A stretch of DNA of 46,512 nt. Origin: an uncultured Caryophanales bacterium (GTDB taxonomy: Bacteria; Bacillota_I; Bacilli_A; RF39; UBA660). Positions 5,045-26,164 of this stretch are shown here, piece by piece (position 1 is the stretch's first letter; every line of letters begins with the position of its first letter). The translations under genes and the position numbers were made by a program. The notes below the pieces were generated by a model, which ran no database searches, was not told the DNA's origin, and saw only the letters and a program-made list of their open reading frames with translations. The stretch is taken from NCBI GenBank assembly GCA_946628005.1, contig CAMOWA010000010.1, positions 1 to 46,512 of the forward strand, in the 5' to 3' direction.

Positions 5045-5767
5045 ATGAAAAATGAAGTTGAAGTAAAAGCACAAAAAATTTATAAATGGGATTTATATAA
5101 AAAGTTTATTAAAATCACATTTCTATTATTACTCATTGTAATATCAATTGTTTATTTGGTTTTATATATTGTTTATCAAGGTGGTAGGTTTACTGTTACT
5201 CTTGACAAAAATTTGTCAAATAGAAAAAGCGTATATCTAACTGAGGATGGTAAAATATCTGGTAGGACAAGAGAATTAAGAGCAGATACTATTGACTATA
5301 TGGATAATATTTCTATTAATTGGTTGCCAGAAAATATTGATTCTGTAAAAGATGGTTCCCATAATGGAGATAATTATATTGCTTATACTTTTTATGTTAT
5401 TAATTCTGGGAATGAAGATGTTCATTATTGGTATGAAATTGATATTGATGATACTATTTTAAATGTAGATGAAGCAATAAGAATTATGATAATAAAGAAT
5501 GGAGAAAGAGTAGTTTACGCAAAGAAAAGTAGAGTAACTGGTGGGGCTGAAGCTGGTACGAAAGCGTTTGTTTCAAATTCTATGGCTGTTTTGGAACAAA
5601 GAACAAACTTTAAACCTAAATCTAAAGACAAATTTACTGTTGTTGTTTGGATTGAAGGAGATGACCCTGAATGTAAAAATGATTTACTTGGAGGGGAAAT
5701 TAAGTTGCACATGGATATTACCGAAGAACATGTCGATAATAATAAAAAATTAAAGATAAAGGAGTAA
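5045..5767 (+). CDS. Membrane-anchored TasA-like surface protein, 240 aa
   Basis: A basic N-terminus is followed by one hydrophobic segment (about residues 22-47, ITFLLLLIVISIVYLVLYIV) and a roughly 190-residue beta-rich extracellular domain. The C-terminal motif VVVWIEGDDPEC is nearly repeated in the next gene (YMWIEGQDVDC), so the two domains are probably related, in the style of TasA/camelysin proteins. There is no AxA site or AWF motif after the hydrophobic segment, so this one may stay anchored. The start ATG follows a GTGGTGATTG ribosome-site-like sequence. It is the first gene after the promoter at 4951, and only six bases separate it from the next gene, so the two are co-transcribed. 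A structural or chaperone partner of the following fibre subunit is likely, by inference. Confidence 0.65.
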   Translation: MKNEVEVKAQKIYKWDLYKKFIKITFLLLLIVISIVYLVLYIVYQGGRFTVTLDKNLSNRKSVYLTEDGKISGRTRELRADTIDYMDNISINWLPENIDSVKDGSHNGDNYIAYTFYVINSGNEDVHYWYEIDIDDTILNVDEAIRIMIIKNGERVVYAKKSRVTGGAEAGTKAFVSNSMAVLEQRTNFKPKSKDKFTVVVWIEGDDPECKNDLLGGEIKLHMDITEEHVDNNKKLKIKE

Positions 5768-5773
5768 AATAAT

Positions 5774-6778
5774 ATGACAAAGAAAGAAGCAAGAAAAAAT
5801 AGAAAAAGAAGAAGAAAAGTATTTTTAGCTTTCATTATGATTTTGTTCTTAGCACTTGTGCTTACTGCATCAACATATGCATGGTTTACTGCTAATAGAA
5901 CAGTTACTGTTGAAAGTATTGATGTTAATGTTTCAACATCTAAAGGTTTACAGATATCTACAGATGCTACATCTTGGAAATCAATTGTAACCAACAATGA
6001 TATTACTACAGCAAATTGGACTGGAGTAAAAAATCAACTTCCAAAAGGAACAAATACAATGGTTCCAGTATCAACAGTAGGTACTGTTGATAGTAGTACT
6101 GGTTATATGGATATGTATCGTGGTACAGTTGAGACTGATCTTACAACTGGTAATAATATCTTAGTTGCTGAAAAATCAACTGAAGCTAATGGTACTTCTG
6201 GAGACTTTGTAGCATTTGATTTGTTTTTCCAATCTTCACAGGCTCAGACAGTTTATTTAACATCTAATTCTTCAGTTGTTGCTAGTGGAACGGATAAAGG
6301 TATTCAAAATGCTGCTCGTGTTGCATTTATTAAAGAGGGTAGTGTTGCATATGGATTAACTCCTGCAGATGCTCAAGCTTTAAAAGGTGAAATTTCTAAA
6401 TTAGTATGGGAACCAAATTATGATGTTCATACTGCATCAGGTGTTGCTAATGCGCAAAGTGTTTACGATATAACAGTTGGACAAACTGGTGGATCTAAAC
6501 TTGCTTATAAAGGGGTTAAAGCACCTATTGCTGAGGCTACTAAAGTTGCTTTAGATAGCGAAGATTCTAATTATTTTGGGGATATTACTACTGTTGGAAG
6601 TGTAGCGGGTGGTATTCCTACTACTGCATATATTAATGCATTTGATGTTGCTGAAGGAGTTACTAAAGTTCGTATTTATATGTGGATTGAAGGTCAAGAC
6701 GTTGATTGTGAAGACCATGCATCAGGAAGTGCTTTAACTTATAATTTACAATTTAGTATTGATTCAAGTGCTTCTTAA
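5774..6778 (+). CDS. SipW-dependent TasA-like major fibre subunit, 334 aa
   Basis: The N-terminus is a model SipW-type signal peptide: a basic region of about 15 residues, a hydrophobic core, then TASTYAWFTANRTVTVESI (residues 31-49), where cleavage after Ala36 is expected. The mature part is Thr/Ser/Ala/Gly-rich and beta-structured with few charges, as expected of a secreted fibre-forming TasA/CotN-like protein, and ends with the WIEGQDVDC motif and an LQFSIDSS strand. AAGGAG precedes the ATG. It is followed by a strong terminator, so the first two genes form a short highly expressed unit. Two active-looking SipW peptidases (8694 and 24777) in the same locus are the probable processing enzymes. 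I infer this is the main fibre protein from its clean signal and composition. Confidence 0.75.
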   Translation: MTKKEARKNRKRRRKVFLAFIMILFLALVLTASTYAWFTANRTVTVESIDVNVSTSKGLQISTDATSWKSIVTNNDITTANWTGVKNQLPKGTNTMVPVSTVGTVDSSTGYMDMYRGTVETDLTTGNNILVAEKSTEANGTSGDFVAFDLFFQSSQAQTVYLTSNSSVVASGTDKGIQNAARVAFIKEGSVAYGLTPADAQALKGEISKLVWEPNYDVHTASGVANAQSVYDITVGQTGGSKLAYKGVKAPIAEATKVALDSEDSNYFGDITTVGSVAGGIPTTAYINAFDVAEGVTKVRIYMWIEGQDVDCEDHASGSALTYNLQFSIDSSAS

Positions 6779-6801
6779 GATTTGTATTGATTATAATTAT
6801 G

Positions 6802-6829
6802 AAAGCCTTCTTTTTTAGGAGGCTTTTTA
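6802..6829 (+). terminator. Rho-independent terminator
   Basis: AAAGCCT (6802-6808) pairs with AGGCTTT (6820-6826), followed by more T. It closes the 5045-6778 unit, 20 bases after the stop codon. Confidence 0.85.
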
Positions 6830-6846
6830 TTCTATGAGGTGTTACT

Positions 6847-6993
6847 ATGGAAAAAGATTTCAATTTTATAAAAGAATTAGGGGATAAAGAATTATTAGAT
6901 TTATATGATAAAATTGTTGAACATATTCAATATTTGAAGGAAAATATCATTGTTATATCAGATGGGGGGGATTCTTCTAATGTCTCAAATTGA
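6847..6993 (+). CDS. Small acidic protein, 48 aa
   Basis: ATG at 6847 follows a GAGGTG ribosome site at good spacing. The product (MEKDFNFIKELGDKELLDLY...) is a short acidic helical protein with no signal or membrane segment. Its end, reading ISDGGDSSNVSN, crosses a run of seven G and overlaps the next gene by 14 bases. That G run is also the ribosome site of the next gene, so its main role may be translational coupling. I do not recognise it. Confidence 0.5.
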   Translation: MEKDFNFIKELGDKELLDLYDKIVEHIQYLKENIIVISDGGDSSNVSN

Positions 6994-8590
6994 TGATTTT
7001 TATAGTTTAATGGAAAACGATAAAACTTATGTTGATAATTTTGTTTTAGAAACTCATGAAGGTACGAAACGTTTAAAAGAAAAGTTTCATTTGAATGCAT
7101 CTTTAGAAAGAAATAATTATATAGAGAAAAAGATTGTTGATTATAATCATTCTTTAGAAGTTATTAAGGATGAAATGAAAAATCGCTTTTCACAATTAAT
7201 GCCTAGAGATCGTAGTTTAGAATATGAAAAAGAACTTGATAAGATTGATGCTTATATTAATTTAGTTAAACTCGACTTAGATATTTCTAGTTCTTTTAAA
7301 CTTAATATTTCTTTTGTTTTATCATCTATTCAAGATGATACTTCTTTGGATGATTTAAATTTAGCACTATCTAAGTTTATAGATTTATTTCATCAGTATG
7401 GTATTTCTCTTTCTATTGAAGATTTTAAGTATACTATGTTTACTGAAGAATATATGAGATCTTTTTTTAGTAATGCAGATCAAGAAACTTTTAAAAGAGT
7501 TTTTGAAAAAATATTTTTTACTTGTCCAGATTTAAAAATGCAATTAAAAATGAATTTAATTGATATAATTTCTAAGTATCAAAAGAAGTTAGATCAATTT
7601 GTTTCTTTATATAAGAAGGAGTTATATGAGAAATATTCTGTTAATTCTTCTGATGTTGTTTCAAAATATGTATCTTATCGGGGAGAAGTGGGACAACGTA
7701 TTGCGATGGATGAGTATTATAATACTAAATTGTTTTTAGATTCTAAAAAGAAAATTGAAGATTATATGGATAGTTCTCCTATTCGTGAGAAAAATTATAA
7801 TCTTTTTACTACTACTAAGTATAGTGATTTAGATGAGTTAAAAAAGAAAAATTTTAATGATTCTATTATGGATTTTTATTTGACTTTGAACGAGTTAAAA
7901 AAGTATTATCGATATGAATTTATAATTAAAGATTTAATTGAAAGATATAAAAATAAGGATAGTGTAAAGAATGAATTTCTTTCTAAGAAAAAAGAAATAG
8001 AAAAAGAAGAAAAAACTAGACTTTCTATTTATAAAGATTATTTAAAGGCTTGTGGAATTGGTTTGTTTTCTCATAAAAATTCTAATAAGATGAAAGAATG
8101 TATGTTAAAAATGAATGATCAAGTAAAGAAATTAAATCAATTATATTCTGAATTTAATGATATAGAGATTACTTATTATTTGTCTTCTATTAATAATTCA
8201 GCAAGTATTTATGATTTATTTATGATATCTTTAAAATCATTTCCTTTTTTAGAAAAATGTTTTTTGAATAGAGAAGATTTTATTGATGAGTCATTTCCAA
8301 AAGTTATAGATGAATTTTTTAGATTTTTGTATAATCCAAATAATAGTATTCTTAGAGAAATTAATGTATTTACTGATTATGATTTAGTAGATGTAATTGC
8401 TTCTAAATATCGTTTATTAAATTTAAATGTAACAAATGAATCTATTCAACCTGAGACTATTGATTCTACTTTAGAGAGTTTAAGATTTATAAATTTGATT
8501 CAAAATGTTGAAAATAGTAATACTTCTTTTTCAAATATTTACATTTTATGTAGAATGAAAGATATTTTAAAAAATGAGGAAGAATCTTAA
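6980..8590 (+). CDS. Large cytoplasmic helical protein, 536 aa, unknown
   Basis: The start is placed at ATG 6980 (MSQIDDFYSLMEND), eight bases after a GGGGGGG ribosome site; an in-frame ATG at 6950 has none. The protein is almost entirely helical and charged, with coiled-coil stretches around residues 60-100 and 330-400 (FLSKKKEIEKEEKTRLSIYK). It has no signal peptide and no obvious catalytic motif. One short Gly-containing segment, YLKACGIGLFSHKN, breaks the helices. I do not recognise the family. It lies between the fibre subunit and the extended signal peptidase, so a scaffold or adaptor inside the cell serving the surface system is possible. A terminator follows it. Confidence 0.6.
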   Translation: MSQIDDFYSLMENDKTYVDNFVLETHEGTKRLKEKFHLNASLERNNYIEKKIVDYNHSLEVIKDEMKNRFSQLMPRDRSLEYEKELDKIDAYINLVKLDLDISSSFKLNISFVLSSIQDDTSLDDLNLALSKFIDLFHQYGISLSIEDFKYTMFTEEYMRSFFSNADQETFKRVFEKIFFTCPDLKMQLKMNLIDIISKYQKKLDQFVSLYKKELYEKYSVNSSDVVSKYVSYRGEVGQRIAMDEYYNTKLFLDSKKKIEDYMDSSPIREKNYNLFTTTKYSDLDELKKKNFNDSIMDFYLTLNELKKYYRYEFIIKDLIERYKNKDSVKNEFLSKKKEIEKEEKTRLSIYKDYLKACGIGLFSHKNSNKMKECMLKMNDQVKKLNQLYSEFNDIEITYYLSSINNSASIYDLFMISLKSFPFLEKCFLNREDFIDESFPKVIDEFFRFLYNPNNSILREINVFTDYDLVDVIASKYRLLNLNVTNESIQPETIDSTLESLRFINLIQNVENSNTSFSNIYILCRMKDILKNEEES

Positions 8591-8622
8591 AAAAATGGGT
8601 ATACTATTTTTATAAAATATTT

Positions 8623-8650
8623 ACTATAAAAACTTTTATAGTTTTTTTTT
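8623..8650 (+). terminator. Rho-independent terminator
   Basis: ACTATAAA pairs with TTTATAGT across a four-base loop, followed by eight T. It closes the 6847-8590 unit; a -10 box for the next gene follows within ten bases. Confidence 0.8.
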
Positions 8651-8656
8651 CTATGA

Positions 8657-8662
8657 TATAAT
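8657..8662 (+). promoter_or_regulatory. -10 box upstream of sipW-like gene
   Basis: TATAAT sits in CTATGATATAATG, 31 bases before the GTG start. The -35 position falls in the T run of the terminator and is not well defined, so confidence is moderate. Confidence 0.5.
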
Positions 8663-8693
8663 GTATATTGAGGATAGATTGGTGGTGACTTAG

Positions 8694-10109
8694 GTGAAAA
8701 AAGCTAAGAATATTTTTAAATTTTCTGCTACTGCTTTTTTAGTAATGTTAGTTTTATTATGCATTTATACCTTTGTTGTTACTGATATAATGAAAAAAGA
8801 TTATGTAAATGTTTTTGGATATTCGTACTTTGTTGTTGCGACTGGTTCAATGTCTGGGACAATAGAAGTTGATGATATTATTTTTGTTAAAATTACTAAA
8901 GATGTTAAAGTGAATGATGTTGTTACTTTTAAAAATAAGGATGGAGATATTATTACGCATCGTCTAATAAAACTTGATGGTGCTCGTTACATTACAAAAG
9001 GTGATGTTAATAATGCAAGTGATGAAGCTATCTCAAAAGACCAGATTATTGGACGAGTATCGTTTGTTGTTTCACCTAGTTTTATTTTAAAATGTATTGC
9101 AATTTTTTTGATAATATTTATTTTTTTAGCTTTAGTTAATTTTGATAATATTATTAAAAAGTTTATTATTGGTGATAGTAATAATAAAGAGCCAGTTTTA
9201 CAAAAAAAAGGATTTAATATTAAACAAGATTTAAAAACTACTCAAAGTATTTCTAATGATAATGTGTCTATTGAGAAAAATGAAAATAAAAATGATTCAA
9301 AGACAAAAAACATACAATCTTCTTTAAGAAATGATTCTACTATTGAATTGTTAGAAGATTCTGTTCCTACTAATTCAAATCGTTTACCTGATGATATTTT
9401 TAAAAATCCTAAAAAGAGATTTGAGGAACCTTCGTCTGGTCTTACGGTAACTATTTCTATTGATGAAATGGAAGAGCTTGATAAAATTCATTCAAGGGAA
9501 GTTCTTCAAAAAGAAAGGGAAGAGTTGGTAGAAAATTATGATGATTATCAATTTTCTTATACTCCGATGAAGAAGAAGAATAAGAATCTTCGTGAAAAAG
9601 AGACTATAGATTTTGTTGTATCTATTCTTAAATGCAAGAATAATAGTATTGCTAAAGCTAGAATGAATAAGAAATGGTTAGAAAGATATAGATATGTATA
9701 TAAGTTATGTTTCTTATTATTAACTGGTAGTACTGAATTATTAAATGATGAGATTGAGAGACCTCCTTTTAAAGAGATTTATGATTATGATTTAGATAAA
9801 GTTGGTTTAACTCAGTCTATTAGGAATCGTATATATGATATGCCAATTTATGTTTTTTTAAGAATTTTAACTTATTCTGTTTTATATAATGATGATGAGA
9901 TGTTTGATGGTATTTATAAAATTTTAAAGTATAAGGCTATGATTGATCCTAACAAAGAATTTACTCAATTAAGTCGTTCTGATAAAGAGGCTTTTAAACA
10001 GGTAAATACATTAATTTCTTTTATGAAAAAAGTATCTAATAAATTTGATAATAAACATGTTTTTGAACTTGAAAAAATAGAAAGAATGGTTCAAATAGGG
10101 AAGTATTAG
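8694..10109 (+). CDS. SipW-type signal peptidase I with long C-terminal extension, 471 aa
   Basis: Residues 1-150 are a complete signal peptidase of the SipW/Sec11 (ER) type: a first membrane helix (about 12-30), the catalytic-serine motif VVATGSMSGTIEVDD (Ser52), the histidine motif ITHRLI (His89, where bacterial enzymes of the Lep type use Lys), TKGDVNNASD with acidic residues (104, 110), and a second membrane helix (131-148). SipW itself is about 190 residues; here a further 320 residues follow, first disordered and charged, then a helical domain (about 300-470) with no motif I know. That tail should lie in the cytoplasm. The start is GTG after GGTGGTGA. The gene is only 17 bases from the giant solenoid gene, so the two are co-expressed. 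It is expected to cleave TasA-like preproteins of this locus. Confidence 0.85.
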   Translation: MKKAKNIFKFSATAFLVMLVLLCIYTFVVTDIMKKDYVNVFGYSYFVVATGSMSGTIEVDDIIFVKITKDVKVNDVVTFKNKDGDIITHRLIKLDGARYITKGDVNNASDEAISKDQIIGRVSFVVSPSFILKCIAIFLIIFIFLALVNFDNIIKKFIIGDSNNKEPVLQKKGFNIKQDLKTTQSISNDNVSIEKNENKNDSKTKNIQSSLRNDSTIELLEDSVPTNSNRLPDDIFKNPKKRFEEPSSGLTVTISIDEMEELDKIHSREVLQKEREELVENYDDYQFSYTPMKKKNKNLREKETIDFVVSILKCKNNSIAKARMNKKWLERYRYVYKLCFLLLTGSTELLNDEIERPPFKEIYDYDLDKVGLTQSIRNRIYDMPIYVFLRILTYSVLYNDDEMFDGIYKILKYKAMIDPNKEFTQLSRSDKEAFKQVNTLISFMKKVSNKFDNKHVFELEKIERMVQIGKY

Positions 10110-10126
10110 TTTAGGAAGTGAGAGTT

Positions 10127-13100
10127 ATGATAAGTTTAGTTAAGCAAAAAAAAATCTATACTTTTTTTATCATTGCTCTTTTTTTAACTGTTTTTTCTTT
10201 TGGATTATATTCTTTTATTACAGGTGTTATTTCCTTTGGTGAATTAGAGGATAAATGGGATGGGGAAAGTGTTGCTACTTCATTTCATTCTGGTAATGGA
10301 ACAGAAGATAATCCTTATGTAATAAATGATGCTTCTGAGTTTATTTATTTTCAATCTTTAATAGAAGGGGAACATTATAAAGACTATCAAGATAAGTTTT
10401 ATATTTTAGGGAAAGATATTGATTTTAATAATCATGAAATAACTCCTATTGGTAAAATAATTGATGAGGAAGAGAGATATTTTAAGGGTAATTTTAATGG
10501 AGATGGATTTTCATTATTAAACTTTAAAATTACTTCTTCTACTGTAATAGATAAGATATCTTATTATTCTTTGTTTTCTATTATAGAAAATTCTACTATT
10601 CAAAATATTGGATTAAGAGATTTTAATATTTCATCTTCTATGAATAATGATGATTTATCTTACTTGTCAATTTTAATTGGAAAAGATTATTCTACTATTG
10701 ATGAAAAATCTATTTTAAAAAATATTTTTATAGATGGTTTTACTATAGATACTAATCTTTTTACTAATAAAGATAATAAGATAAATTTACTAGGAATTTT
10801 TGATTATTCAGAAATTACTAATCTTACTATTTTTGGAGAAGTAAAAAGTGAATTTAATTATCAACTAGGGGATTTTTCTACTAATTCATCTATTTCTAAT
10901 ATAGTTGATGGGGTTTTATATTCTGATAAAGTTGATTTAAAAATAAATAACTATTATGTATATAAAGATAATAAATTTTATTTAAATGATGAAGAAATTT
11001 CTTATGATTCAATTCTTTCTAATTTAAATGAAAATTATGGTATTGTTTATTATTGGGATTATATTGATAATGATTTTATAATTAAAAAGTATGAAGAGAG
11101 AAAAAAGGTAGATGTACCTATTTCTTCTAAGAGTTTTTCTTTCTCTATTCGTAGTGTGGGTGCAATTAATTTACATGATTCTGGTACAGAGGGTACTAGT
11201 ATTTATGTTAATGATTTAGATAAGGATTATAATTATTACATGGGTTTAAATTATGCTTCTTCTTCTGATGGAAGTTTGCCTACAAGAGATAATAAGAATC
11301 TTTATTCTACTTCTAATTTAGCTAAGGTTTATATTCATTATGATAGTCGTGATTATAGTGATGATTCTATTTATGGAACAGTTAGTTTAACTGAGAGTTA
11401 TACGGATTATTATTATTATAAATATTATCCTATTATTGATGGGTATGTTACTTTTGATTTGATTGATAATCCTTGGGCAAATCGACCTAATGGACTTGCT
11501 TTTAATGGTTGGGTTACTGATTATCAAGGGGCTGTTGTTAGTTTGGATAATAGTTATTATGTTAGACAGGTTCGTATTCCAGCTAGTAGTTTTATTTCTA
11601 TAGAGTTTAAAACTTCTTGGATTCCAGCAACAATTGTTAATGGTAATAGTTTTTCAGGGCTTAATAGTGCTGGTATGGAATTGTATGAGCCGATTGTAAA
11701 TGTAGATTATGGTGATGTTTCTGAGTATTATGTTTTACGTACTCAACAAGCTTATACTAATTATCCTACTGGGAGACCTATTTATAATTTAAATGGTAAT
11801 CAAATTAATAATAGAAGATGTACTAATTTTTTTGGTTGTCAATATTTGATACAAAGTGATTCTTCTGTTGCAGAAGATGGTGTCAGTTATTATCGGTTAA
11901 CTTTTGCGAATGGAAATTATTCTTATGCTACTTCTGTAGAAGAAGTTGAGCCTACTATCACTACTACTGCACCTTTTGATGAAGGAGAGTTAGTTGCTGG
12001 TAATTTTGAGCAGGTAATAATATCAAATGGTTCTAGCATAGATGGTTATTATGATGAAGATGGTAATATTCTTAGTGGTAGTTGTACTAGAGGACCTTGT
12101 ACTGTTTATAAATATCTTCAGTTTTATGATGAATTAGGAAATGTTAATATTGTTGATTTATCTAAGAATTATTATTATTTGGTTACTAGAGATACTAATA
12201 TTATGGTTTTAACTGGTAATATTTCTGGACTTACTGTTTCTAAACCTGTTACTGTTACTGGTATTAATAATGGTGTTGATTATGGTGGTAGTATTACTAT
12301 TAGTCGTTCTAGTATTGTTTTGAATTCTGATTGTAGAATTGAACAACTATACATTGATAGTAGTTCATATAGTAGTGCTTCTTTGACAACTAATTCATAT
12401 TATATTGGTTATAATTTAATAGTTGCTAATTATCATAATTTAAAAATTGGTAGAGGAATTGAAGTTGCTAATAATCGTAAGATTTCTGGTATTTTTGGAG
12501 GAACTGCTCTAAGAAATGGTCCAACTTATGGTAGTGCATCTAATCCATATCATTATTCTTTAATAGTTGAATCTGGTTTTTATAATAATATATATTTTTC
12601 TGAATCATTTTATGGTGCTGGTACTATGTATTTATATGGTTTATGTACACTTGGTAATGATTTAGATAGAGTTAGTGGGAATAATGACAATTTGGATGTT
12701 TACTATTCTTTTCAAGGCAATGCTGGTAGTTCTTTAACGATGAGAGGACAAAATGATATTGATCGAATTTACGATATCTTTGTTAAAAGTGGTAAGTTTG
12801 GTTCTAGTAAGTCTGATTTATATACTGGTATTTATGTTGGTGGACGTGGTGGAAATATTTATGGTAATAGGGCTATAACTATCGAAGGTGGTTATGTCTA
12901 CACGATAATAGGTGGATTGGGTTCTATATCTAGTCAACAAGATTTGAATTCTGTTTATATTTATATGAAAGCTGGTAGTGTAGATGCTATTTTTGGTGGT
13001 AGTGGTTCTGCAGCAACATATGGTAATAGAATTATAAGCGTTACTGGTGGTACTGTTAATTATTCTATTTTTGGTGGAAGTAATGGTTCAACGATAAATG

Positions 13101-18805: not shown

Positions 18806-18826
18806 GAGTAAAGATAGGTGAGTTTA

Positions 18827-19435
18827 ATGAATAAGAAGATTGCTATTATGTTTTTATTATTAACAATTGGATGTTTTTTTTATTTAAGTTCTAAGAGTAC
18901 ATATACTTCTTATGAGTCTAATACTACTGGTAAGGTAAAAGCAAATACTGCAGGTATACACTTATCTATAAATGGGTTTAATGTAATGAATAGTGGAGGG
19001 GTATTGGATAATCGTATTATTTTGGAAAATACTACTTGGGAGTCTACTCACACACGTGAGAAAAAAATATCTCCTGGTTCTAGTGGAACAATTGATTTAG
19101 AAGTTGATCCTACTTCAAGTGATGTAGCAATTCTTTATGAGTTTCGATTTGTTGATAAAGTTATAGATGAAGAGAAACTATTAAATTTTGGAACTATTGT
19201 ATCTGATGATACATCATTTGTTAAAACAGGTGTAGATACTTATACAGGTGTGTTTACTTTAGATGATATTAATGATGGGAAAAAAACAAATATTCATGTT
19301 GATTTTTATTTTGATTATTTAAATGATATTGAAGGAATTACAGAAGATAATCAAGAATTTGATGATTTATTTGAGATTCATTTTCATGCTATACAATATA
19401 GAGGAGAAGAAATAGTACCATATTCTGGAGGATGA
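18827..19435 (+). CDS. TasA-like secreted protein, 202 aa
   Basis: The start is ATG 18827 after AGGTGAG; an in-frame GTG nine bases earlier overlaps the ribosome site. A short signal-type N-terminus (MNKKIAIMFLLLTIGCFFYL) is followed by SKSTYTSYESNTTGKVKANT, resembling the region after the cut in SipW substrates. The roughly 170-residue domain has the TasA/camelysin pattern: a first strand around GIHLSINGF, the turn motif KISPGSSGTIDLEVDPTSSD (compare xxPGxxGxxxLxVxN in the family), then paired strands (IHVDFYFDYL; FEIHFHAIQYR). It is probably a minor fibre subunit or anchor. Four bases separate it from the next gene. Confidence 0.7.
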   Translation: MNKKIAIMFLLLTIGCFFYLSSKSTYTSYESNTTGKVKANTAGIHLSINGFNVMNSGGVLDNRIILENTTWESTHTREKKISPGSSGTIDLEVDPTSSDVAILYEFRFVDKVIDEEKLLNFGTIVSDDTSFVKTGVDTYTGVFTLDDINDGKKTNIHVDFYFDYLNDIEGITEDNQEFDDLFEIHFHAIQYRGEEIVPYSGG

Positions 19436-19439
19436 TTTT

Positions 19440-20054
19440 ATGATAAATTCTTTTCGTGATAAAATCTTATCTATTCGATATTTTAAGGAAAAGACAAAAT
19501 TAATTCTATTTTTATTGGGTTTAATACTTATTTTGTTTTTTGCTCGTTATTTGTTTGGACTTGCTTATTCTAGGTATGAAGTTCGGGCAAAGATTAATGC
19601 TAACATAGATAAGGCTTTATATATTTTTGAAGATGAAAAGATAAGTTTTAATTTGGATCCTAATGGAATTATTCCTAGAGACGATCCATATACTTATAAA
19701 TTTAGTGTTTCTAATTTTAATGCTTCTAAAGAGAGTGATGTTGATATTTCTTATAAGGTATCTATTCGTACTACAACTAATTTACCAATACAGCTTAAAC
19801 TTTATCGTAATGAATTATATGACAGTGAAACTTCAGTTAATCTTTTAAATGGTAGTTCCGTTGTTCAAGATGAGGATAGTGCTTGGTATCGTGTTTATAA
19901 TGTCACTGATGAGTTTGAGTTTCTTTATACGTCTAAAAGTACAGATGTTTTTACTTTAGTTATTAATTTTCCTTCTGTTTATTCTGAAAACCCAATTTAT
20001 GCTGATTATATTGAAAATATTGAAGTTACTTTAGAGTCTAAACAAATAATATAA
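19440..20054 (+). CDS. TasA-like membrane-anchored protein, 204 aa
   Basis: A basic N-terminus and hydrophobic segment (about residues 20-43, LILFLLGLILILFFARYLFG) are followed by LAYSRYEVRAKINANIDKAL, matching the SxY...V.A.v.a.iA..l start of mature camelysin-like domains. Beta strands with SNFNASKESDVDISYKVSIR fit the family turn between strands. There is no clear cleavage motif. GGAGG is placed well before the ATG, overlapping the previous gene's end. It is the second gene of the 18827-21003 trio. I infer a structural surface subunit. Confidence 0.65.
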   Translation: MINSFRDKILSIRYFKEKTKLILFLLGLILILFFARYLFGLAYSRYEVRAKINANIDKALYIFEDEKISFNLDPNGIIPRDDPYTYKFSVSNFNASKESDVDISYKVSIRTTTNLPIQLKLYRNELYDSETSVNLLNGSSVVQDEDSAWYRVYNVTDEFEFLYTSKSTDVFTLVINFPSVYSENPIYADYIENIEVTLESKQII

Positions 20055-20070
20055 TATTGGAGGTAATATT

Positions 20071-21003
20071 TTGAAATATATACGTGAACATAAAAAAATT
20101 AGTATTTGTATCTTAATTGTTCTTATTATATTTTTAACAATTACTGTTACTTTTGGTAGATATATTAAAAATATTGTAAATAATTTTATTTTAGAAACAA
20201 AGGCTTTTTATTTTAATAGTAGTATATTGTCTATAAATGGTAAAAATTATTCTATTGTTAATTGGGATGGTGTTAACTCTTATAGTTTGAACATTGATTT
20301 AAATAATAGAAAAAATGATGAGAGATATACTAAAACGGATATTGTATATTCTATTAATGTTGATTGTCCAAATACTGTTCAATGCAGTTTAAATAAAAGT
20401 TCTGGTACGATTCATCCAGAGGATGAATCAGATAGTTATGTTATTACGGTTAGTCCAAAACAAAATTTTTATGAGGGGGATAGTGTTGTTGTAAAAACTG
20501 AAGTAGAATCTTCTTTACCATATCGTAAAAAGATGAGTGCATCTTATACTATTGGGGTTGAAAAAAGTGATTTTTCTTATGATATTGTGGATAGTGTAAA
20601 TTCTAAGTTTTTAACAATTAATTTTACTAATTCTATTACTTATTATCAAGTGAGTGAAGCTTTTGGTTCTTATTCTGTTGGAGATCAAATTGGTTTAGAT
20701 GATTATAGTTCTTTACAAGATAGTGAAAAAGATAAGTGCTTTTCAGCTATTATAACAGTTGAGTATGATCCAAATAAATTATTAGTTGATATGACTAACG
20801 ATTTATATTTGAATCGTTTAAGTACGAATTATCATGAAGAGATTATTAATGGATATTCTTATGTTTCTAAGTTTAGTTTTAAGGTACCTGCTAGTTCTAA
20901 TAGTTCTATTATTTTTTATAAAGACGATATTACTAAAAATTATACATATCCTATTGTAAATAATGATTCTATTATTGATGTTTCTGTTGTAAAAGCAAAT
21001 TAA
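20071..21003 (+). CDS. TasA-like/surface protein with TTG start, 310 aa
   Basis: A textbook GGAGGT lies nine bases before TTG at 20071, so TTG is the start. An N-terminal hydrophobic helix (about residues 10-28) is followed by TFGRYIKNIVNNFILETKAF, again matching the opening of TasA-like domains. Two beta-rich domains follow, the first ending near residue 165 with a DNA-encoded pair of cysteines (CPNTVQC) that could form a disulfide. The last third (SYVSKFSFKVPASSNSSIIFY) has no match I recognise. It closes the trio; the next gene has its own -10 box. Confidence 0.6.
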   Translation: MKYIREHKKISICILIVLIIFLTITVTFGRYIKNIVNNFILETKAFYFNSSILSINGKNYSIVNWDGVNSYSLNIDLNNRKNDERYTKTDIVYSINVDCPNTVQCSLNKSSGTIHPEDESDSYVITVSPKQNFYEGDSVVVKTEVESSLPYRKKMSASYTIGVEKSDFSYDIVDSVNSKFLTINFTNSITYYQVSEAFGSYSVGDQIGLDDYSSLQDSEKDKCFSAIITVEYDPNKLLVDMTNDLYLNRLSTNYHEEIINGYSYVSKFSFKVPASSNSSIIFYKDDITKNYTYPIVNNDSIIDVSVVKAN

Positions 21004-21029
21004 TCATATATTTTCTATTTTATTTATGT

Positions 21030-21035
21030 TATAAT
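21030..21035 (+). promoter_or_regulatory. Extended -10 box for the AAA+/DUF2357 operon
   Basis: TATGTTATAAT contains TG one base before TATAAT. It lies 26 bases before the TTG start at 21061 and would drive the genes 21061-26164. No clear terminator is seen between 21003 and this box. Confidence 0.55.
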
Positions 21036-21060
21036 TTATATGTTAAGGTAGGTGATTTAA

Positions 21061-22113
21061 TTGAAAAATTTCATTAATGTTTATATGGATTATAAAGTTA
21101 ATTGCCTAATTCGTATTGGTATTTTCTTCTTGAAAAAAGATAATTCTTTTATAAAAAGAGTATTTAGAGGATATTTTTATACTTACATAGATAATTATTA
21201 TTATAAGATTTTTAATACTATTGATGGGGAAAAGTTTACTTTAAAAAATTTAAAATTAGAATTTGATGGTATTATGTTAGAAATGTTAGATGATTATAAA
21301 GAATATGAATTAATTGATGATAATCGTACTTATCAAGAAAATTGTAATTTAATTCGAAAACTAAATAGTTTTTGTTATGAGATTGTTCGCTTAGATTTAT
21401 TAAAATATTCTTCTAAAGGAGATATTGCTAGAGAAGTAGAAGATTTTGTTCATAATAATAGAGTATTATCTTCTTATGTTACAGGTTCTCTTTCTGAGTT
21501 GATTTCTATTGTTCGAGAAAAATATACTAATTATAATAAACTATTAGAATTTGATGATCAGTATTTTAATTTAGATAAGAAGAAATTTGAGAATGATTCT
21601 AATATTCTATTTTGGGAGTTGGTTCCTAATATTAAAGTGTTAGATATTTATAGAGATAGTCTAGTTAAAAAAGTTTTTCAAGAAAATAAATTATTAAAAT
21701 TGAAGATGAAATGTCTTATTGAGAAAATAAGTATTTATTTGTTAAAAAGTGTTTTAAATAGAGAAGATATTAATCCTATTATTATAAAATTGAATTCTAA
21801 TTTTATTAGTAGAGGTACTATTAATGAAGATTTATTAGATTTAATGGATAATCCTTTATTTCAAAAATATGTTATTTTGGGAGTGGATTACTCTATTTAT
21901 CAGAGTCAAAGAAGTGCATTTTTAGCGGATTATCAATTTGCTTGTATTCAAGATTTTACTCATATTAATGATGTTTATCAAAAAACAGATTCTATTTATA
22001 AAGAAGGAGTCTTTAATTATTTAATAGTTGAGGATTGTAAGTATCGTGATAGAGATTATTTCTTGGATTATAATAGTGATGTTTTAAAGATCTTATTATT
22101 TGAGGAGGATTAG
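21061..22113 (+). CDS. Cytoplasmic helical protein, 350 aa, unknown
   Basis: TTG start after AAGGTAGGTGA; no signal peptide. The protein is helical and charged (NVYMDYKVNCLIRIGIFFLK at the start; LIEKISIYLLKSVLNREDIN near the middle) and ends DVLKILLFEED. The stop overlaps the ribosome site of the AAA+ gene (GAGGAGG), so translation is coupled and a physical partnership with the ATPase is plausible. I do not recognise the family. It resembles in character, but not in any clear sequence stretch, the 536-aa protein at 6980. Confidence 0.6.
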   Translation: MKNFINVYMDYKVNCLIRIGIFFLKKDNSFIKRVFRGYFYTYIDNYYYKIFNTIDGEKFTLKNLKLEFDGIMLEMLDDYKEYELIDDNRTYQENCNLIRKLNSFCYEIVRLDLLKYSSKGDIAREVEDFVHNNRVLSSYVTGSLSELISIVREKYTNYNKLLEFDDQYFNLDKKKFENDSNILFWELVPNIKVLDIYRDSLVKKVFQENKLLKLKMKCLIEKISIYLLKSVLNREDINPIIIKLNSNFISRGTINEDLLDLMDNPLFQKYVILGVDYSIYQSQRSAFLADYQFACIQDFTHINDVYQKTDSIYKEGVFNYLIVEDCKYRDRDYFLDYNSDVLKILLFEED

Positions 22114-22114
22114 T

Positions 22115-23656
22115 ATGAATACTTATATTCGATTTTTATTTGAGTTTATGTCCGTATTTTTTAAAGGAATTGGTATGATTGTAGGTGGTTTCTTTAAAGG
22201 TATTATTCAAATGTTTAGTATTCAGGATTATTTATATGTAATTGAATTTTATAGAAAAGATTTTAAAGTTGCTGAATGGATACTAGTAGTTGTTGCTGTT
22301 ATAGTGATGCTTATTATGTTATCTTTGATTGTTTTATTAATTGTTCTTTTTATACGTAAGTATTTTAAATTTCGTAAGACATTAGTTGAACAAGAATCTA
22401 TGTTAAAAGAAATTGGAGAATTAAATAGAGAAGTAGCAACTCTTGTTGAAGAAAAAGAAAAAATTCTAGCTATGAAAGTTTCTCAACTTGGTTTAAAACC
22501 GGGAGAAGAAGCTACTATTACTAGTGAAGAAGATGTTAATACTGGAGAATCTGATAATTTAGATGGAGATTTAGATAGTTATCGATTTAGTAAATTACAC
22601 GCTATTGATTTAGAATATCGTGATTATAAAGTTCAACAATATGGAAATACTTTTACTTTAGAAGAGTTAGTTGAATTGTTTCGTAATTTTGCAGCTTCTA
22701 AGTTAAAACTTTATTATACATCAAATATGATACGTTTATTTATATCTGGTTTATCAGCAACTAAATTAGTTATTTTACAGGGTATTTCTGGTACTGGTAA
22801 AACTTCTCTTGCTTATGCATGGGGAAAATTTATTAAAAATGATGCTATTATAGCTTCTGTACAACCTTCATGGAGAGATCGTACTGAATTATTTGGTTAT
22901 TTTAATGAGTTTACTAAGAAGTTTAATGAAACAGAAGTATTAAAGGGGCTATATGTAGCTGGATATACAGATGATGTTTATGTTACTGTTTTGGATGAAA
23001 TGAACATTGCTCGTGTTGAGTATTATTTTGCTGAAATGTTATCTATTTTGGAAATGCCTTCTCGTGATGAATGGATTATTGAACTTGTTCCAAGTGTTTG
23101 GGATAATGATCCTAAAATGTTAAAAGGTGGAAAATTACAAATACCTGGTAATATGTGGTATATTGGTACAATTAATAATGATGATTCAACTTTTGCTGTT
23201 ACGGATAAAGTTTATGACCGTGCTATGCCTATAGATATTAATGATAAAGGACAAGTGTTTGAACCAATTGATACGGATAGTATGAATATTAATAGTTCTT
23301 ATTTAGAAGGATTGTTTGCAGATGCTAAAGCTAAATATCCTTTAACTAGTGAAATGGAGAAAAAAATAAATGATATGGATGACTATGTTATAAAACATTT
23401 TCGTATAGCTTTTGGTAACCGTATTGTTAAACAGATGAAAGATTTTGTTGCTACTTATGTTGCTTGTGGTGGTACAGAAGTAGATGGAGTGGATTATTAT
23501 ATTGCTCGTAAGATTTTACGTAAATTTGAACAATTAAACTTAGCATATATACGTGATGAAATTGATCCTTTTATTGATTTTTTAGATAAAAGTTTTGGAA
23601 AAGAACATTTTAATGAATGTAAAGATTATTTATTAAGACTTAAGAAGATGGTTTAA
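22115..23656 (+). CDS. Membrane-anchored McrB/MoxR-like AAA+ ATPase, 513 aa
   Basis: The start is ATG 22115 after GAGGAGG, one base past the previous stop. Residues 54-84 form a strong membrane helix, followed by a coiled coil (about 88-120) and a linker. The AAA+ module spans about 200-420: Walker A GISGTGKTS (223-231), Walker B VTVLDEMNIARVEYYF (290-305), sensor I in YIGTINNDDSTF (349-360), and a candidate arginine finger in DKVYDRAMP (Arg369). The LDEMN Walker B and TxNxDD sensor are typical of McrB-like AAA_5 proteins. Unlike McrB there is no DNA-recognition domain at the N-terminus. Its partner is the DUF2357 gene 11 bases downstream. By inference it works at the membrane on the surface-fibre system, remodelling or powering something, rather than cutting DNA. 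Confidence 0.85.
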   Translation: MNTYIRFLFEFMSVFFKGIGMIVGGFFKGIIQMFSIQDYLYVIEFYRKDFKVAEWILVVVAVIVMLIMLSLIVLLIVLFIRKYFKFRKTLVEQESMLKEIGELNREVATLVEEKEKILAMKVSQLGLKPGEEATITSEEDVNTGESDNLDGDLDSYRFSKLHAIDLEYRDYKVQQYGNTFTLEELVELFRNFAASKLKLYYTSNMIRLFISGLSATKLVILQGISGTGKTSLAYAWGKFIKNDAIIASVQPSWRDRTELFGYFNEFTKKFNETEVLKGLYVAGYTDDVYVTVLDEMNIARVEYYFAEMLSILEMPSRDEWIIELVPSVWDNDPKMLKGGKLQIPGNMWYIGTINNDDSTFAVTDKVYDRAMPIDINDKGQVFEPIDTDSMNINSSYLEGLFADAKAKYPLTSEMEKKINDMDDYVIKHFRIAFGNRIVKQMKDFVATYVACGGTEVDGVDYYIARKILRKFEQLNLAYIRDEIDPFIDFLDKSFGKEHFNECKDYLLRLKKMV

Positions 23657-23667
23657 TAGGGGGATTT

Positions 23668-24765
23668 ATGGAAGAAGAAGAGATATTAGATGATGATGAG
23701 TTATTTTTACATAATTTAAATTCTACTTTATATGTAAAAAAAGATTATGATTTAAAAGATTTTGATTATGAATGGTTAGATATTTTAGAAGATTGTATTC
23801 CATATATTGATAATATTTTAAGAAATCCTAAAAGGTTTATTATTAATGAAGAAGAGATTGTTAAAGTTGAGTTGGCAAGAAAAGTAACAGTTGAGTCTGT
23901 TATTCATCTTACTCAACATACTAATTTAATTCAAAAAATAGAGGATAATGGAGATGTAAAACCTTCTAAAATTTTAAATATTAATAAAGAAGAAAGTATG
24001 GATACTTATGAAAATAGATTTATTTATACTTTAATTAATGATTTAAGAATGTTTTTTGAAAAAAGAGTAGAGTCAACAAGTGGATCAAGTTATTGTTTGG
24101 ATAAGAATATTCTAAAGTATGAGGCTAATACTAAAGTTTATGGAGAAGATTTAAAAATTAGTATGGATATTAGTGATATAACTAGAAATGTAAAGGAGCA
24201 TTCTGGGGATAGAGGAAGCATGACATTAGAAGAACGTCTAAGAAGAGCAAAAACTCAGATTGATGGTTTCTTCGGTACTGAATTAATGCAAATACTTTCT
24301 AAGTTACATGTTTCTCCTGTTAGAAGTCCAATTAAAAAGACTAATGTAATTTTAAAAAATCCTAATTTTAGAAAAGCAGAAGAGTTATGGAATTATATAC
24401 AGACATTTGAAAGTAAGGATAAAAAAGAGAAGGAAAAAAGAGATTTCTTTGATCGTGGGGTATTAAAAAATGAGTATGATCAAGCATTTTTAATGGCTTT
24501 TATTGCTAATCGTAATTTTATTAGTAGTAGTACTAATTCTACGGAATTAAATATGATTTATCAGATGATTGGAAGATTAGTTGATAATTTATTAGATACA
24601 GATGAAGATTTAACAGAAGATAAAATTGAAGAAATATTTCATAAAGAAATAAAAAAAATTAAGGAAAAGAATAAGAGGAGATCTCATTCTATATATGGAA
24701 TTTTAAAAGATAGATTAGAAAGAGAAAATGGTAAAATAGATGATTTTCTTCGAAGTTTAGGATAA
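23668..24765 (+). CDS. DUF2357 protein, AAA+ partner, 365 aa
   Basis: ATG follows GGGGGA. The segment PSKILNINKEESMDTYENRF (residues 99-118), continuing IYTLINDL, is the signature of DUF2357 proteins, which are usually encoded beside McrB-like AAA+ ATPases, as here. Before it lies an acidic N-terminus and after it helical regions. Many DUF2357 partners end in a PD-(D/E)xK nuclease; I see no such motif in the last 130 residues, and at 365 residues the protein looks too short to hold one. No membrane segment. It probably docks on the AAA+ ring in the way McrC docks on McrB, but without the nuclease, so a non-restriction role is likely. The domain call is sound; the function is inferred. Confidence 0.75.
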   Translation: MEEEEILDDDELFLHNLNSTLYVKKDYDLKDFDYEWLDILEDCIPYIDNILRNPKRFIINEEEIVKVELARKVTVESVIHLTQHTNLIQKIEDNGDVKPSKILNINKEESMDTYENRFIYTLINDLRMFFEKRVESTSGSSYCLDKNILKYEANTKVYGEDLKISMDISDITRNVKEHSGDRGSMTLEERLRRAKTQIDGFFGTELMQILSKLHVSPVRSPIKKTNVILKNPNFRKAEELWNYIQTFESKDKKEKEKRDFFDRGVLKNEYDQAFLMAFIANRNFISSSTNSTELNMIYQMIGRLVDNLLDTDEDLTEDKIEEIFHKEIKKIKEKNKRRSHSIYGILKDRLERENGKIDDFLRSLG

Positions 24766-24776
24766 AGGAGTTTACT

Positions 24777-25400
24777 ATGTCTAAAATATTACATAATAAA
24801 TATTTTTCTATAATATATACTATTATTCGTGATATCTTCTTCTTTGTAGTTGTCTTATATTTAGCTTTTATTCTTATGCAGAGGATAAGTGGAAATAATA
24901 GTATTTTTGGATATCGTTTATTTACGGTTGCTACGGGATCAATGTCTGGAGTATATGAAATAAATGATGTGATTGCTGTAAAAGATTATGATGTTTTAAA
25001 GTTAAAAGTTGGAGATGATATTGCTTATCGTGGTTCACGTGGAGGATTAGAAGGAAAGCTTATTACTCATAGAATTATTCGTATTACAGAATCAGATCAT
25101 GGTAGAGTGTATGTTACTCGAGGAGTTAATGCTCCAGTAGAGGATCCTTCTATTGAAAGTTATCAAATACTTGGAAAAGTTATTGGAGTTGTACCAATTA
25201 TCACGACTTTAAATCATGTTATAAAAAGTCAATTAGGTTTTTTTGCACTTGTATTTTGTCCTTTAGTAATTGTTATAGTATTAGAAGTATTACAAACTAT
25301 TACTGATATAAGATTAGAAAAAGAAGAAATTAGAGAAATTAATCATAATGATATTGAAGAAAAAGAAATTAAAAAAAATAATGATATAGAAATTTTTTAG
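24777..25400 (+). CDS. SipW-type signal peptidase I, 207 aa
   Basis: This is a normal-length SipW-like enzyme: first membrane helix (about 17-36), catalytic motif FTVATGSMSGVYEINDVIAV (Ser55), histidine motif LITHRIIRI (His98), VYVTRGVNAPVEDP where the family has KGDxNxxxD (the first Asp is Val here, Asp123 kept), then GKVIGVVP and a second membrane helix (about 152-175). The charged tail faces the cytoplasm. AAGGAG precedes the ATG. It sits between the DUF2357 gene and a TasA-like gene that is probably its substrate, nine bases downstream. With the enzyme at 8694 it gives the locus two active-looking peptidases, suggesting separate substrate sets. Confidence 0.85.
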   Translation: MSKILHNKYFSIIYTIIRDIFFFVVVLYLAFILMQRISGNNSIFGYRLFTVATGSMSGVYEINDVIAVKDYDVLKLKVGDDIAYRGSRGGLEGKLITHRIIRITESDHGRVYVTRGVNAPVEDPSIESYQILGKVIGVVPIITTLNHVIKSQLGFFALVFCPLVIVIVLEVLQTITDIRLEKEEIREINHNDIEEKEIKKNNDIEIF

Positions 25401-25408
25401 GAGAGGCT

Positions 25409-26164
25409 ATGAAAAAGCAAATAGATAGAGAAAAAATTCGTCTTTTGAATAAAAAACTTAAAAAGCAAAAATATATTAGTCTTCTTTTAGCACTTTTTAC
25501 TTTTGGTGTTAATATTTTTGCGTGGTTTGCTTTTTCTGCAAATGCTGGTTTAGGTATTGATGCTACTGTTGCAGCATGGGATGTTGAGTTTAAAGATAAT
25601 GGTGAAATATCTAGAAATATGTTTATTGAAGTCGCTAAAATGAAACCTGGGATGAGTGATTTTATAAGAACAATAGAAGTAAATAATAAAAGTGATGTAG
25701 TTGCTAAATTTTCTTATGAGTTTGTTTCAATGTCTTTACTTGGTCATGTAATTAATATATCTAGTATTGATGATATGAATGAATATTTATCTAGTTTTTA
25801 TCCGTTTTCTGTTCATTTTACTCCTTCTAGTGATGAAATTGCTGCTAATGGTTCTATTACTTTTGATGTTCGTGTTACTTGGCCTTTTGAAGATGTTGAT
25901 GGAACTACTACTTATTATAAACAAAATGATGTTTATGATTATAATGATACTTTCTTGTATTATACTAAAACTGGTGAGAGATATGACTTATTTAATGTAG
26001 CATCTTCAAGTGTATATAATTCAAATAAAAGTAGTTTATATTTAGAAAAAGATGATGCTGATACGTATTTTGGTATGGCTTGTCATCATTATGAAGAAGA
26101 GTCTGGGCAACCTTGTCTTACAATGAATTTGCGTTTACTTGTTGAACAAAAGATTGATGCATAA
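25409..26164 (+). CDS. SipW-dependent TasA-like protein, 251 aa
   Basis: A very basic N-terminus (residues 1-22) and hydrophobic core lead to NIFAWFAFSANAGLGIDATV (about 35-54), a SipW-type cleavage region with the AWF signature. The mature part starts with strands around AAWDVEFKDNGEIS and has the family turn VAKMKPGMSDFIRTIEVNN. The end contains two cysteines (MACHHYEEESGQPCLTMNL) in the place where the first two fibre genes have their WIEGxDxxC motif. GGAGAGG precedes the ATG. It is the last intact gene of the surface-fibre locus; the following DNA is a broken, unrelated gene. Confidence 0.75.
   Translation: MKKQIDREKIRLLNKKLKKQKYISLLLALFTFGVNIFAWFAFSANAGLGIDATVAAWDVEFKDNGEISRNMFIEVAKMKPGMSDFIRTIEVNNKSDVVAKFSYEFVSMSLLGHVINISSIDDMNEYLSSFYPFSVHFTPSSDEIAANGSITFDVRVTWPFEDVDGTTTYYKQNDVYDYNDTFLYYTKTGERYDLFNVASSSVYNSNKSSLYLEKDDADTYFGMACHHYEEESGQPCLTMNLRLLVEQKIDA

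Follow-up and report, generated by a model that had tools for sequence, protein, structure and literature searches.

A cluster of SipW-type peptidases, TasA-like proteins and a membrane-anchored McrB-like NTPase that appears to build surface fibres in a gut-type bacterium

Gene content of the cluster

The analysed stretch of DNA (hereafter the window; 46,512 nucleotides of an uncultured Caryophanales bacterium) contains, between positions 5045 and 26164, 14 adjacent, co-directional open reading frames (ORFs) on the plus strand, with which this gut-type bacterium appears to build protein fibres on its cell surface. The initial annotation had described fourteen or so adjacent genes with many gaps shorter than 20 bases, and the ORF list of the window bears this out, since 8 of the 13 intergenic gaps are that short (range −14 to 171). 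The left border is marked by a tRNA-Leu(CAA) gene (4733..4819, minus strand), which likewise flanks the cluster in the relative G026, and the right flank is common to four near relatives. The locus was compared with a first set of 20 loci, with 80 named loci, with a wider phylum sample of 40 loci and with 119 genomes.

Three genes encode SipW-like proteins, as was initially proposed: SipW1 (8694..10109) and SipW2 (24777..25400) retain the Ser and His residues, while in the pseudo-peptidase (18136..18768) both positions are occupied by Asp. SipW1 has, moreover, a long C-terminal extension that is probably cytoplasmic. All three match the SipW model NF046067 (E 6.4e-15 for 8694, 9.2e-10 for 18136 and 1.5e-20 for 24777), with 38–74 bits as compared to a curated cut-off of 190 bits, which is passed by no protein of the 119 relatives either; SipW1 and SipW2 exceed the cut-off set for TIGR02228 (signal peptidase I, archaeal type).

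The putative substrates of these peptidases form a larger group, that is composed of tasU1 (5045..5767; a single-TM protein), tasA1 (5774..6778; a TasA-like subunit with a TYAWF-type N-terminus), tas2 (18818..19435) and tas3 (19440..20054), both TasA-like with a single TM, tas4 (20071..21003; a single-TM protein, possibly TasA-like) and tas5 (25409..26164; TasA-like, with an AWF-type N-terminus). Each of the six has a single hydrophobic N-terminal helix. One further TasA-like gene is detached and lies on the strand opposite to the cluster (34585..35178, minus strand). A profile of this gene, to which tas2 responds as well, gave hits in 58 of the 80 named loci, and the tasU1 profile, which cross-matches tasA1, in 31 of the 40 phylum-sample loci. 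As there is cross-matching among the iterative SipW1 and tas-family profiles, single family labels in such locus counts are approximate.

The SipW-type signal of tasA1 is matched below threshold (TIGR04088, E 0.072), and its residues A36 and W37 are the same in all 29 homologues of the alignment. The predicted tasA1 model (pLDDT 86.5) gave as its two best structural matches (8aur and 7pnb) a Sulfolobus (archaeal) thread and the TasA fibre with Z 5.3 each, a value in a range that can reflect no more than a shared general arrangement; FimA and sialidase scored nearly as high. A Foldseek search with the model returned no significant match (best E 0.042), and the profile search of the PDB detected no fibre protein. 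The Bacillus SipW-TasA-TapA biofilm operon consists of three genes and is not known to include AAA+, DUF2357, EAL or giant-protein genes. It shares with the window the SipW-type peptidases, the TasA-like secreted subunits and a weakly similar predicted fold; however, none of the window proteins matches Peptidase_M73/TasA (Pfam PF12389), the only match of the genome being located on another contig. A terminator-like hairpin (6801..6827, plus strand) lies 3′ of tasA1 and could set the ratio of subunit to machinery, though terminator-like sites as a class are not above chance (two found vs. 2.7 in shuffled sequences).

The largest gene (10118..18085) encodes a giant protein with YGGGN repeats and a TM at the N-terminus, a candidate tip adhesin or scaffold, in which 17 Y/F-G-G-G-N-like motifs were counted, many of them 24–26 residues apart. 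The repeats had been noticed before and the protein described as a probable beta-solenoid, a fold that is putative here; its length is corrected from 2652 to the 2655 residues of the ORF list. Its profile matches 41 of the 80 named loci, and 1000 of its residues gave no match at 0.01 in a profile search of the PDB. The product of hel1 (6980..8590) has no predicted TM and belongs to no Pfam family; its profile matches 18 of the 80 named loci.

The McrB-like NTPase, its partner and their link to SipW

The gene at 22100..23656 (plus strand) encodes a membrane-anchored McrB-like AAA+ NTPase, built of one TM (residues 67–85), a heptad-patterned stretch (3.5-residue periodicity over residues 87–136) and an AAA+ domain with the NxD motif, in which N359 and D361 are invariant in 16 of 16 sequences and are followed by D or E. 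The assignment to McrB rests on NCBIfam PRK11331 (E 1.6e-5, far under its cut-off) and on a profile search of the PDB, where McrB was the best match (2.6e-6) and McrB proteins were the only matches at E 0.01. A TM was predicted in every homologue tested, 79 in one set and 41 in another, two CoCoNuT-like proteins included. The membrane anchor claimed in the initial annotation is confirmed. The N-terminus, which is FtsB-like in the systems described below, matched only FtsL (E 0.08–0.25). The characterised member of the McrB family uses GTP, and therefore the term "ATP-driven", applied to this complex before, is not assured.

The adjacent gene (23668..24765, plus strand) encodes a short protein of 365 residues, whose only matching part is a DUF2357 (McrC N-terminal-like) region (Pfam, E 2.7e-11, above cut-off); a profile of it found no meaningful match in the PDB, and long charged extensions occur in some relatives only. 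The nuclease-bearing McrC family (PF10117) is matched by no protein of the genome, in line with the initial description of a neighbour that lacks a nuclease.

The association of such a pair with signal peptidases was named CoCoPALM in one paragraph of a survey on type IV restriction, which also describes the NxD branch of McrB (Bell et al., 2024, eLife, PMC11090510); that paragraph gives no mechanism. In its terms, CoCoPALM comprises an NxD McrB-like NTPase with a TM and coiled coil, a McrC-like DUF2357 partner that usually has a coiled coil too, and neighbours of the signal peptidase family (Bell et al., 2024). The initial statement that no description was known to tie AAA+/DUF2357 to SipW/TasA thus has to be withdrawn, for the link to signal peptidases is already in print. 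The main traits of this group were found in the window: an NxD-branch NTPase, as judged by the motif, a TM and coiled-coil N-terminus, as judged by periodicity and with no FtsB homology implied, and the SipW neighbours. The window version differs from what the paragraph describes in that it is enlarged, its DUF2357 protein is short and it contains the EAL-like hel2. Among the literature matches listed, CoCoPALM was used in this sense only by Bell et al. and the preprint, the others being judged by title and count only.

How firmly is the NTPase linked to SipW? A SipW gene is present in the stretch around the AAA+ gene in 78 of the 80 named loci, and in 77 loci it lies on the AAA+ strand no more than three genes away; in the two loci without SipW in the stretch (L117, L118) SipW matches lie, by coordinates, about 0.4–0.5 kb beyond the stretch. 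The wider phylum sample gave 37 of 40 loci, all within three genes, in contrast to 0 of 14 canonical McrBC control loci. A chance linkage of AAA+ and SipW is rejected on these counts, and the association proposed at the outset has survived the refuting condition set for it, namely that AAA+/DUF2357 genes of relatives would lie away from SipW/TasA-like genes. Taken together, six of the 140 loci (20 + 80 + 40) have AAA+ without SipW in the stretch, namely G111, L117, L118, L264 and the CoCoNuT-like L280 and L281. At the level of genomes, AAA+ was matched in 46 of 119 (the window's own included, and G103 with a weak match at a canonical McrBC locus), all 46 with SipW; SipW is more frequent (87 of 119) and occurs also in 41 of the 73 genomes devoid of AAA+. 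Three of the canonical McrBC control genomes (G046, G068, G233) also carry a window-type AAA+ elsewhere.

hel2 and the EAL-domain genes

Directly 5′ of the AAA+ gene lies hel2 (21061..22113, plus strand), whose N-terminal half is helical. It had been listed among the large soluble helical proteins, a description that holds for part of it, as the C-terminal half of this family is predicted to fold as an EAL domain. The prediction was made on the homologue L136, whose modelled C-terminal half has the EAL fold (Z 14.1 and rmsd 2.8 over 171 residues); the 50 structural matches are EAL domains almost throughout, and those of LapD and FimX are among the closest. By sequence the relation is faint: profile comparison of hel2 with EAL proteins of the loci was weak (hhalign probability 4%, P 0.0097), one of 43 scanned proteins matched Pfam EAL (E 0.011), hel2 of the window has no Pfam match, and the EAL catalytic signature is not recognisable. 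Fusions of hel2 to SipW occur in 15 loci, six from the first set of 20 and nine from the 80 named loci; an alignment of the fusion found no match in the PDB.

Genuine EAL genes were found in 19 of the 40 phylum loci and in 9 of the 80 named loci, counts that include L260, which has no Pfam confirmation, and L248, where the match is cut by the stretch end. The distribution of hel2 is the reverse, with 3 of 40 and 60 of 80 loci, and the two never occur in the same locus. In Bacilli such as that of the window hel2 seems to occupy the place of the EAL genes. The phylum loci contain 32 EAL genes, each of them on the same strand as AAA+, and 12 of the 19 EAL-bearing phylum loci combine one EAL protein of full signature with one degenerate. 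Neither EAL nor hel2 was found in 16 of 38 phylum loci (the CoCoNuT-like pair left out) and in 11 of 80 named loci, some of which are cut by contig ends. At 1e-5 no EAL match was obtained in the genome of the window, and its two GGDEF matches have non-canonical motifs; since canonical c-di-GMP enzymes are thus missing, c-di-GMP may not act as the signal in this bacterium. The presence of EAL-domain (c-di-GMP) genes in AAA+/SipW loci is new here: as whole words, EAL, c-di-GMP, GGDEF, TasA and SipW are absent from the main text of PMC11090510, and among the matches listed from the open-access literature no title or abstract beginning links EAL or c-di-GMP to these systems.

A putative fibre machine and its alternatives

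On balance, the cluster probably specifies a machine of the membrane for the maturation and assembly of surface fibres that are TasA-like and of the donor-strand type. It would be a derived member of CoCoPALM, a group in which many other members are coupled to signalling genes of the c-di-GMP type. TasA-like precursors would be exported by Sec and cleaved by SipW1 and SipW2, with the dead SipW (18136..18768) serving as a scaffold; the subunits would then polymerise via donor-strand exchange, and the giant repeat protein would form the tip or the anchor. On the cytoplasmic side, the McrB-like ring, tethered by its TM and its coiled coil and with DUF2357 as stimulator, would spend NTP on remodelling or gating the peptidase/export complex. 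An intracellular signal may reach the ring through EAL-type proteins; in Bacilli this relay would be the EAL-like hel2, sometimes fused to the SipW tail, and in several other families an intact and a degenerate EAL. The conserved linkage of fibre subunits, SipW and membrane NTPase upholds the central idea of the original proposal, that they form one system. Computation has established the gene content, the conserved association, the NxD motif, the TM anchor, the retention or loss of catalytic residues, the predicted folds, the EAL genes of relatives and the SipW-hel2 fusions; joint function, the formation of fibres, the target of the NTPase, the binding of ligands and the direction of control are inferred.

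Could the cluster serve defence instead? An NxD McrBC-type NTPase might sense invading nucleic acid, with the secreted and surface proteins acting as effector or barrier. The AAA+ protein is a homologue of McrB of the NxD branch, a branch described in the type IV restriction survey (PMC11090510), the PADLOC candidate model PDC-M26A matches part of it (4.9e-37, best stretch 202–324), and among 64 scanned locus neighbours five match mad8 and three match HerA models. Yet the models in that PADLOC scan are mixed and reveal no consistent defence island, EAL is the commonest Pfam family in the set (13 of 64, EAL genes having been deliberately included), a nuclease match was not found and the NTPase has a TM anchor. 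Defence islands are usually patchy, whereas, among genomes of the same genus, the window-type system is carried by 14 of the 15 with a completeness of at least 90% and by 30 of all 38, its right flank being kept in four near relatives and its tRNA in one. Defence is thus considered unlikely, and the best reading appears to be that of a signal-linked, NTP-driven fibre machine rather than of a restriction system.

It is similarly doubtful that the locus joins separate parts, i.e., a standalone TasA/SipW fibre operon next to an AAA+/DUF2357 pair whose role, in the envelope or in stress, is unrelated to it, under shared regulation. That SipW persists in 41 of the 73 relatives lacking AAA+, and that sipW-tasA-tapA of Bacillus is not known to include an AAA+ gene, would fit such an arrangement; however, the adjacency of AAA+ and SipW is kept while gene order changes, the exceptions are limited to the six loci named above, and the neighbour of AAA+, hel2, is the very protein found fused to SipW. 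Nor do we give much credence to a machine for export or folding of giant surface proteins, with TasA-like fibres as an accessory. An ORF of at least 900 aa occurs in 51 of the 80 named stretches and in 18 of the 40 from the phylum sample, four of the ORFs counted being EAL proteins or neighbours of these and two the CoCoNuT-like AAA+, and in G111, one of the first 20 loci, the AAA+/DUF2357 pair lies beside proteins of 1676 and 2466 aa with SipW absent from the stretch. Nevertheless, SipW is more constant than the giants, and 22 of the 40 phylum loci (e.g., L252, L254, L255) have SipW and no ORF of at least 900 aa in the stretch.

The fibre-machine reading can be carried further, though only tentatively: CoCoPALMs may not be defence systems at all but second-messenger-controlled fibre machines, widespread in Bacilli and Clostridia at least, in which an EAL-type receptor switches the membrane McrB-like motor that drives SipW maturation and TasA-like polymerisation, hel2 being a receptor that decayed in Bacilli after the loss of c-di-GMP and was sometimes joined to the peptidase. 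To our knowledge, the polymerisation of TasA-type fibres is believed to need no energy source. If such fibres are indeed served by a conserved NTPase, in many loci with EAL-type neighbours, this would add another type of pilus motor, and a branch of the McrBC family would be reassigned from restriction to the assembly of the envelope. What the literature has mentioned only in passing thereby yields predictions that can be tested: the degenerate EAL proteins should bind a ligand, and the display of fibres should depend on AAA+.

Characterised systems resemble the window in part. McrBC of E. coli, a type IV restriction system, has homologous AAA+ and DUF2357 proteins, while in the window the PD-(D/E)xK nuclease of McrC was not found, there is no sign of a DNA-recognition domain and the NTPase is membrane anchored. 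In LapD/LapG and FimX-PilZ-PilB, degenerate EAL receptors control proteolysis of a surface adhesin or assembly of a pilus; these systems are Gram-negative and their protease or motor is unrelated, so the analogy is one of logic only. The dead SipW of the window is paralleled by SipA of Streptococcus pyogenes, a signal-peptidase homologue, that works with sortase pili and, in contrast to the window, is not known to involve an AAA+ protein. The SipW domain of the modelled SipW-hel2 fusion resembles SipA (Z 12.6, rmsd 1.5 over 86 residues), and the title of the matched PDB entry calls this protein "essential for pilus polymerisation".

Gene content of the cluster and its putative fibre subunits

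Fourteen plus-strand genes span positions 5045 to 26164 of the window, and in eight of the 13 gaps between these open reading frames fewer than 20 bases are left. Domain searches placed SipW-type peptidases at 8694, 18136 and 24777, a McrB-like AAA+ protein at 22100 and DUF2357 at 23668, all on the plus strand, while the TasA-like and helical proteins of the cluster gave no Pfam match above the family cut-off. The Ser/His pair is kept in the peptidases at 8694 and 24777 and lost in that at 18136. The giant protein (10118-18085, plus strand) carries an N-terminal transmembrane segment and 17 YGGGN-like motifs, many of them spaced 24-26 residues apart. Checks of reading frames, domains, Ser/His residues and motifs showed that the initial annotation had described the gene content of 5045-26164 correctly.

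One TasA-like protein (5774-6778) was modelled with AlphaFold2 from 29 sequences (pLDDT 86.5). Two filaments headed the structural rows of the model at Z 5.3 each, the thread of Sulfolobus and the TasA fibre of B. subtilis; next came FimA (Z 4.8), with sialidase and hexosaminidase rows close behind. Foldseek returned no significant match with the same model. Since the Foldseek result was not significant and such Z values may be coincidental, the model supports but does not prove that 5774-6778 is a TasA-like donor-strand subunit. Donor-strand exchange is the way in which TasA polymerises (PMC9674648), and it is likewise proposed for the thread (PMC9715654).

Downstream, a single protein (26773-29421) combines a family-2 glycosyltransferase, several transmembrane segments and a GH5 cellulase domain, and is followed by an ice-binding-like adhesive domain (29469) and DUF285/LRR repeats (30963). 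Together they look like a matrix or adhesion insert, which is missing at the same place in the relatives G026, G005, G007 and G003.

Association of the AAA+/DUF2357 pair with SipW

The order AAA+, DUF2357, SipW, directly adjoining, was found in 17 of the first 20 loci of relatives. One gene intervenes in genome G102; G099 has SipW upstream and a DUF2357 candidate of 442 aa, below the reach of the profile; G111 has additional AAA+ copies and giant surface proteins, with no SipW in the stretch. In G111 (L049, L069) two membrane-anchored AAA+ copies flank one DUF2357, beside a third, partial copy, and the copies are followed by proteins of 1676 and 2466 aa.

The set of named loci comprises the top 80 of at least 590 and was taken with up to about 10 kb on either side of the AAA+ gene; by title these are MAGs or uncultured organisms, most of them labelled Bacilli, Erysipelotrichaceae, Tenericutes or Clostridia. 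Among these best 80, DUF2357 lies in 77 stretches and SipW in 78, on the same strand and within three genes of AAA+ in 77 loci. No DUF2357 was found in L134, L123 and L141, the last two of which stop shortly past AAA+; for L117 and L118, the two without SipW, matches to it lie, by coordinates, about 0.4 and 0.5 kb outside the stretch in the same direction (for L118 the same contig is inferred). In L117 a HerA-type ATPase gene (DUF87; 8106-9875, minus strand) diverges from the AAA+ gene, and it apparently occupies the same place in L118. In the joined locus of G005 a 5449-aa open frame upstream of tas4, a possibly TasA-like gene, reaches the stretch start and matches tas3; it may be a fusion, a real giant or an artefact.

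Because the named loci are biased to close relatives, a wider phylum sample was drawn. The AAA+ profile matches 84 of 392 phylum genomes, out of which 40 loci from 39 genomes, mostly full-length matches, were taken, two of them (L280, L281) chosen on purpose for their ~900-aa CoCoNuT-like AAA+. DUF2357 was found in 36 of the 40 and SipW in 37, the loci lacking SipW being L264 and both CoCoNuT-like ones. None of these partners occurs in the 14 canonical McrBC control loci (13 of 246 relatives), two of which are short stretches of 8 and 11 kb; the control genomes G046, G068 and G233 also have a SipW-linked AAA+ at another site. The initial annotation had allowed that the link would be chance if the pair usually lay away from SipW; it lies beside it (78/80 and 37/40 vs 0/14), although common descent means that these counts are not independent events. 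Of 119 genomes, 46 have an AAA+ match, and every one of these, the window's own and G103 (a weak match at a canonical McrBC locus) included, also has SipW; overall SipW occurs in 87 of the 119.

In four genomes, G357 (L245), G321, G204 and G196, the AAA+ gene is present twice, both copies on one strand with about 15 kb between them. A separate ~610-aa AAA+ type with a single upstream SipW and secreted-looking proteins occurs in L275-L279 and in G099, where genes resembling ABC transporters lie downstream.

Identity of the NTPase

Bell et al. 2024 distinguish an NxD branch among McrB-like NTPases and devote one paragraph to CoCoPALM systems, in which the NTPase is fused to a transmembrane and a coiled-coil domain and has signal-peptidase-family neighbours (PMC11090510). 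In the AAA+ protein N359 and D361 are invariant among 16 of 16 aligned proteins, with D or E next; a transmembrane segment precedes the AAA+ domain in 79/79 and 41/41 proteins (the latter including two CoCoNuT-like ones), and residues 87-136 show a periodicity of 3.5 residues. On these features the window's NTPase is provisionally filed with CoCoPALM. As no nuclease match was found and the protein is membrane-anchored, it is not a restriction system, judged on the usual markers. The association of AAA+, DUF2357 and signal peptidase is known and already named. The main text of PMC11090510 uses none of the words EAL, c-di-GMP, GGDEF, TasA and SipW, and no work tying them to CoCoPALM was found among the titles and abstract openings listed from the open-access literature.

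EAL-type partners and the proposed working

In the protein encoded before AAA+ a SipW domain is fused to hel2 (646-811 aa in all) in six of the first 20 loci and in nine of the 80 named ones. One of these fusions, L136, was modelled (43 sequences, pLDDT 76.9). Its SipW domain resembles S. pyogenes SipA, and EAL domains, LapD and FimX among them, make up nearly all structural rows for its C-terminal part (489-672), with Z values up to 14.1. The window's hel2 (21061-22113) shares its profile family with the hel2 part of L136, on which the EAL-like fold was modelled.

Genuine EAL-domain genes occur in nine of the 80 named loci, among the first 20 in G091, G102, G113 and G118, and in 19 of the 40 phylum loci (L260 without Pfam confirmation, L248 cut by the stretch end), where all 32 share the AAA+ strand; none was found in the 14 McrBC controls. 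No locus has both hel2 and EAL (60 vs 9 of 80 named, 3 vs 19 of 40 phylum loci). Twelve of the 19 EAL-bearing phylum loci pair one EAL of full catalytic signature with one degenerate EAL, whose ~470-aa form has an N-terminal transmembrane segment; in the named loci every one of the nine EALs is degenerate, and G091, G102, G113 and G118 each carry one EAL with the full signature. A simple c-di-GMP story is disfavoured in the window, since its genome has no EAL match and two GGDEF matches with non-canonical motifs, and since both EAL and hel2 are missing from 16 of 38 phylum loci (the CoCoNuT-like pair left out) and from 11 of the 80 named ones, some of these loci being truncated by contig ends.

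Positions of transmembrane segments suggest that AAA+, DUF2357, hel2 and the long tail of SipW1 (8694-10109) are cytoplasmic, at the membrane, and that the TasA-like proteins, peptidase domains and giant protein are outside. It is proposed that an NTP-driven complex gates peptidase maturation and the assembly of fibres, EAL-type proteins being the signal receivers. In G097, of the first set, an HD_5 protein lies nearby in place of EAL or hel2, and in L265, L267, L271 and L274 a conserved ~245-aa gene stands between the two EAL genes.
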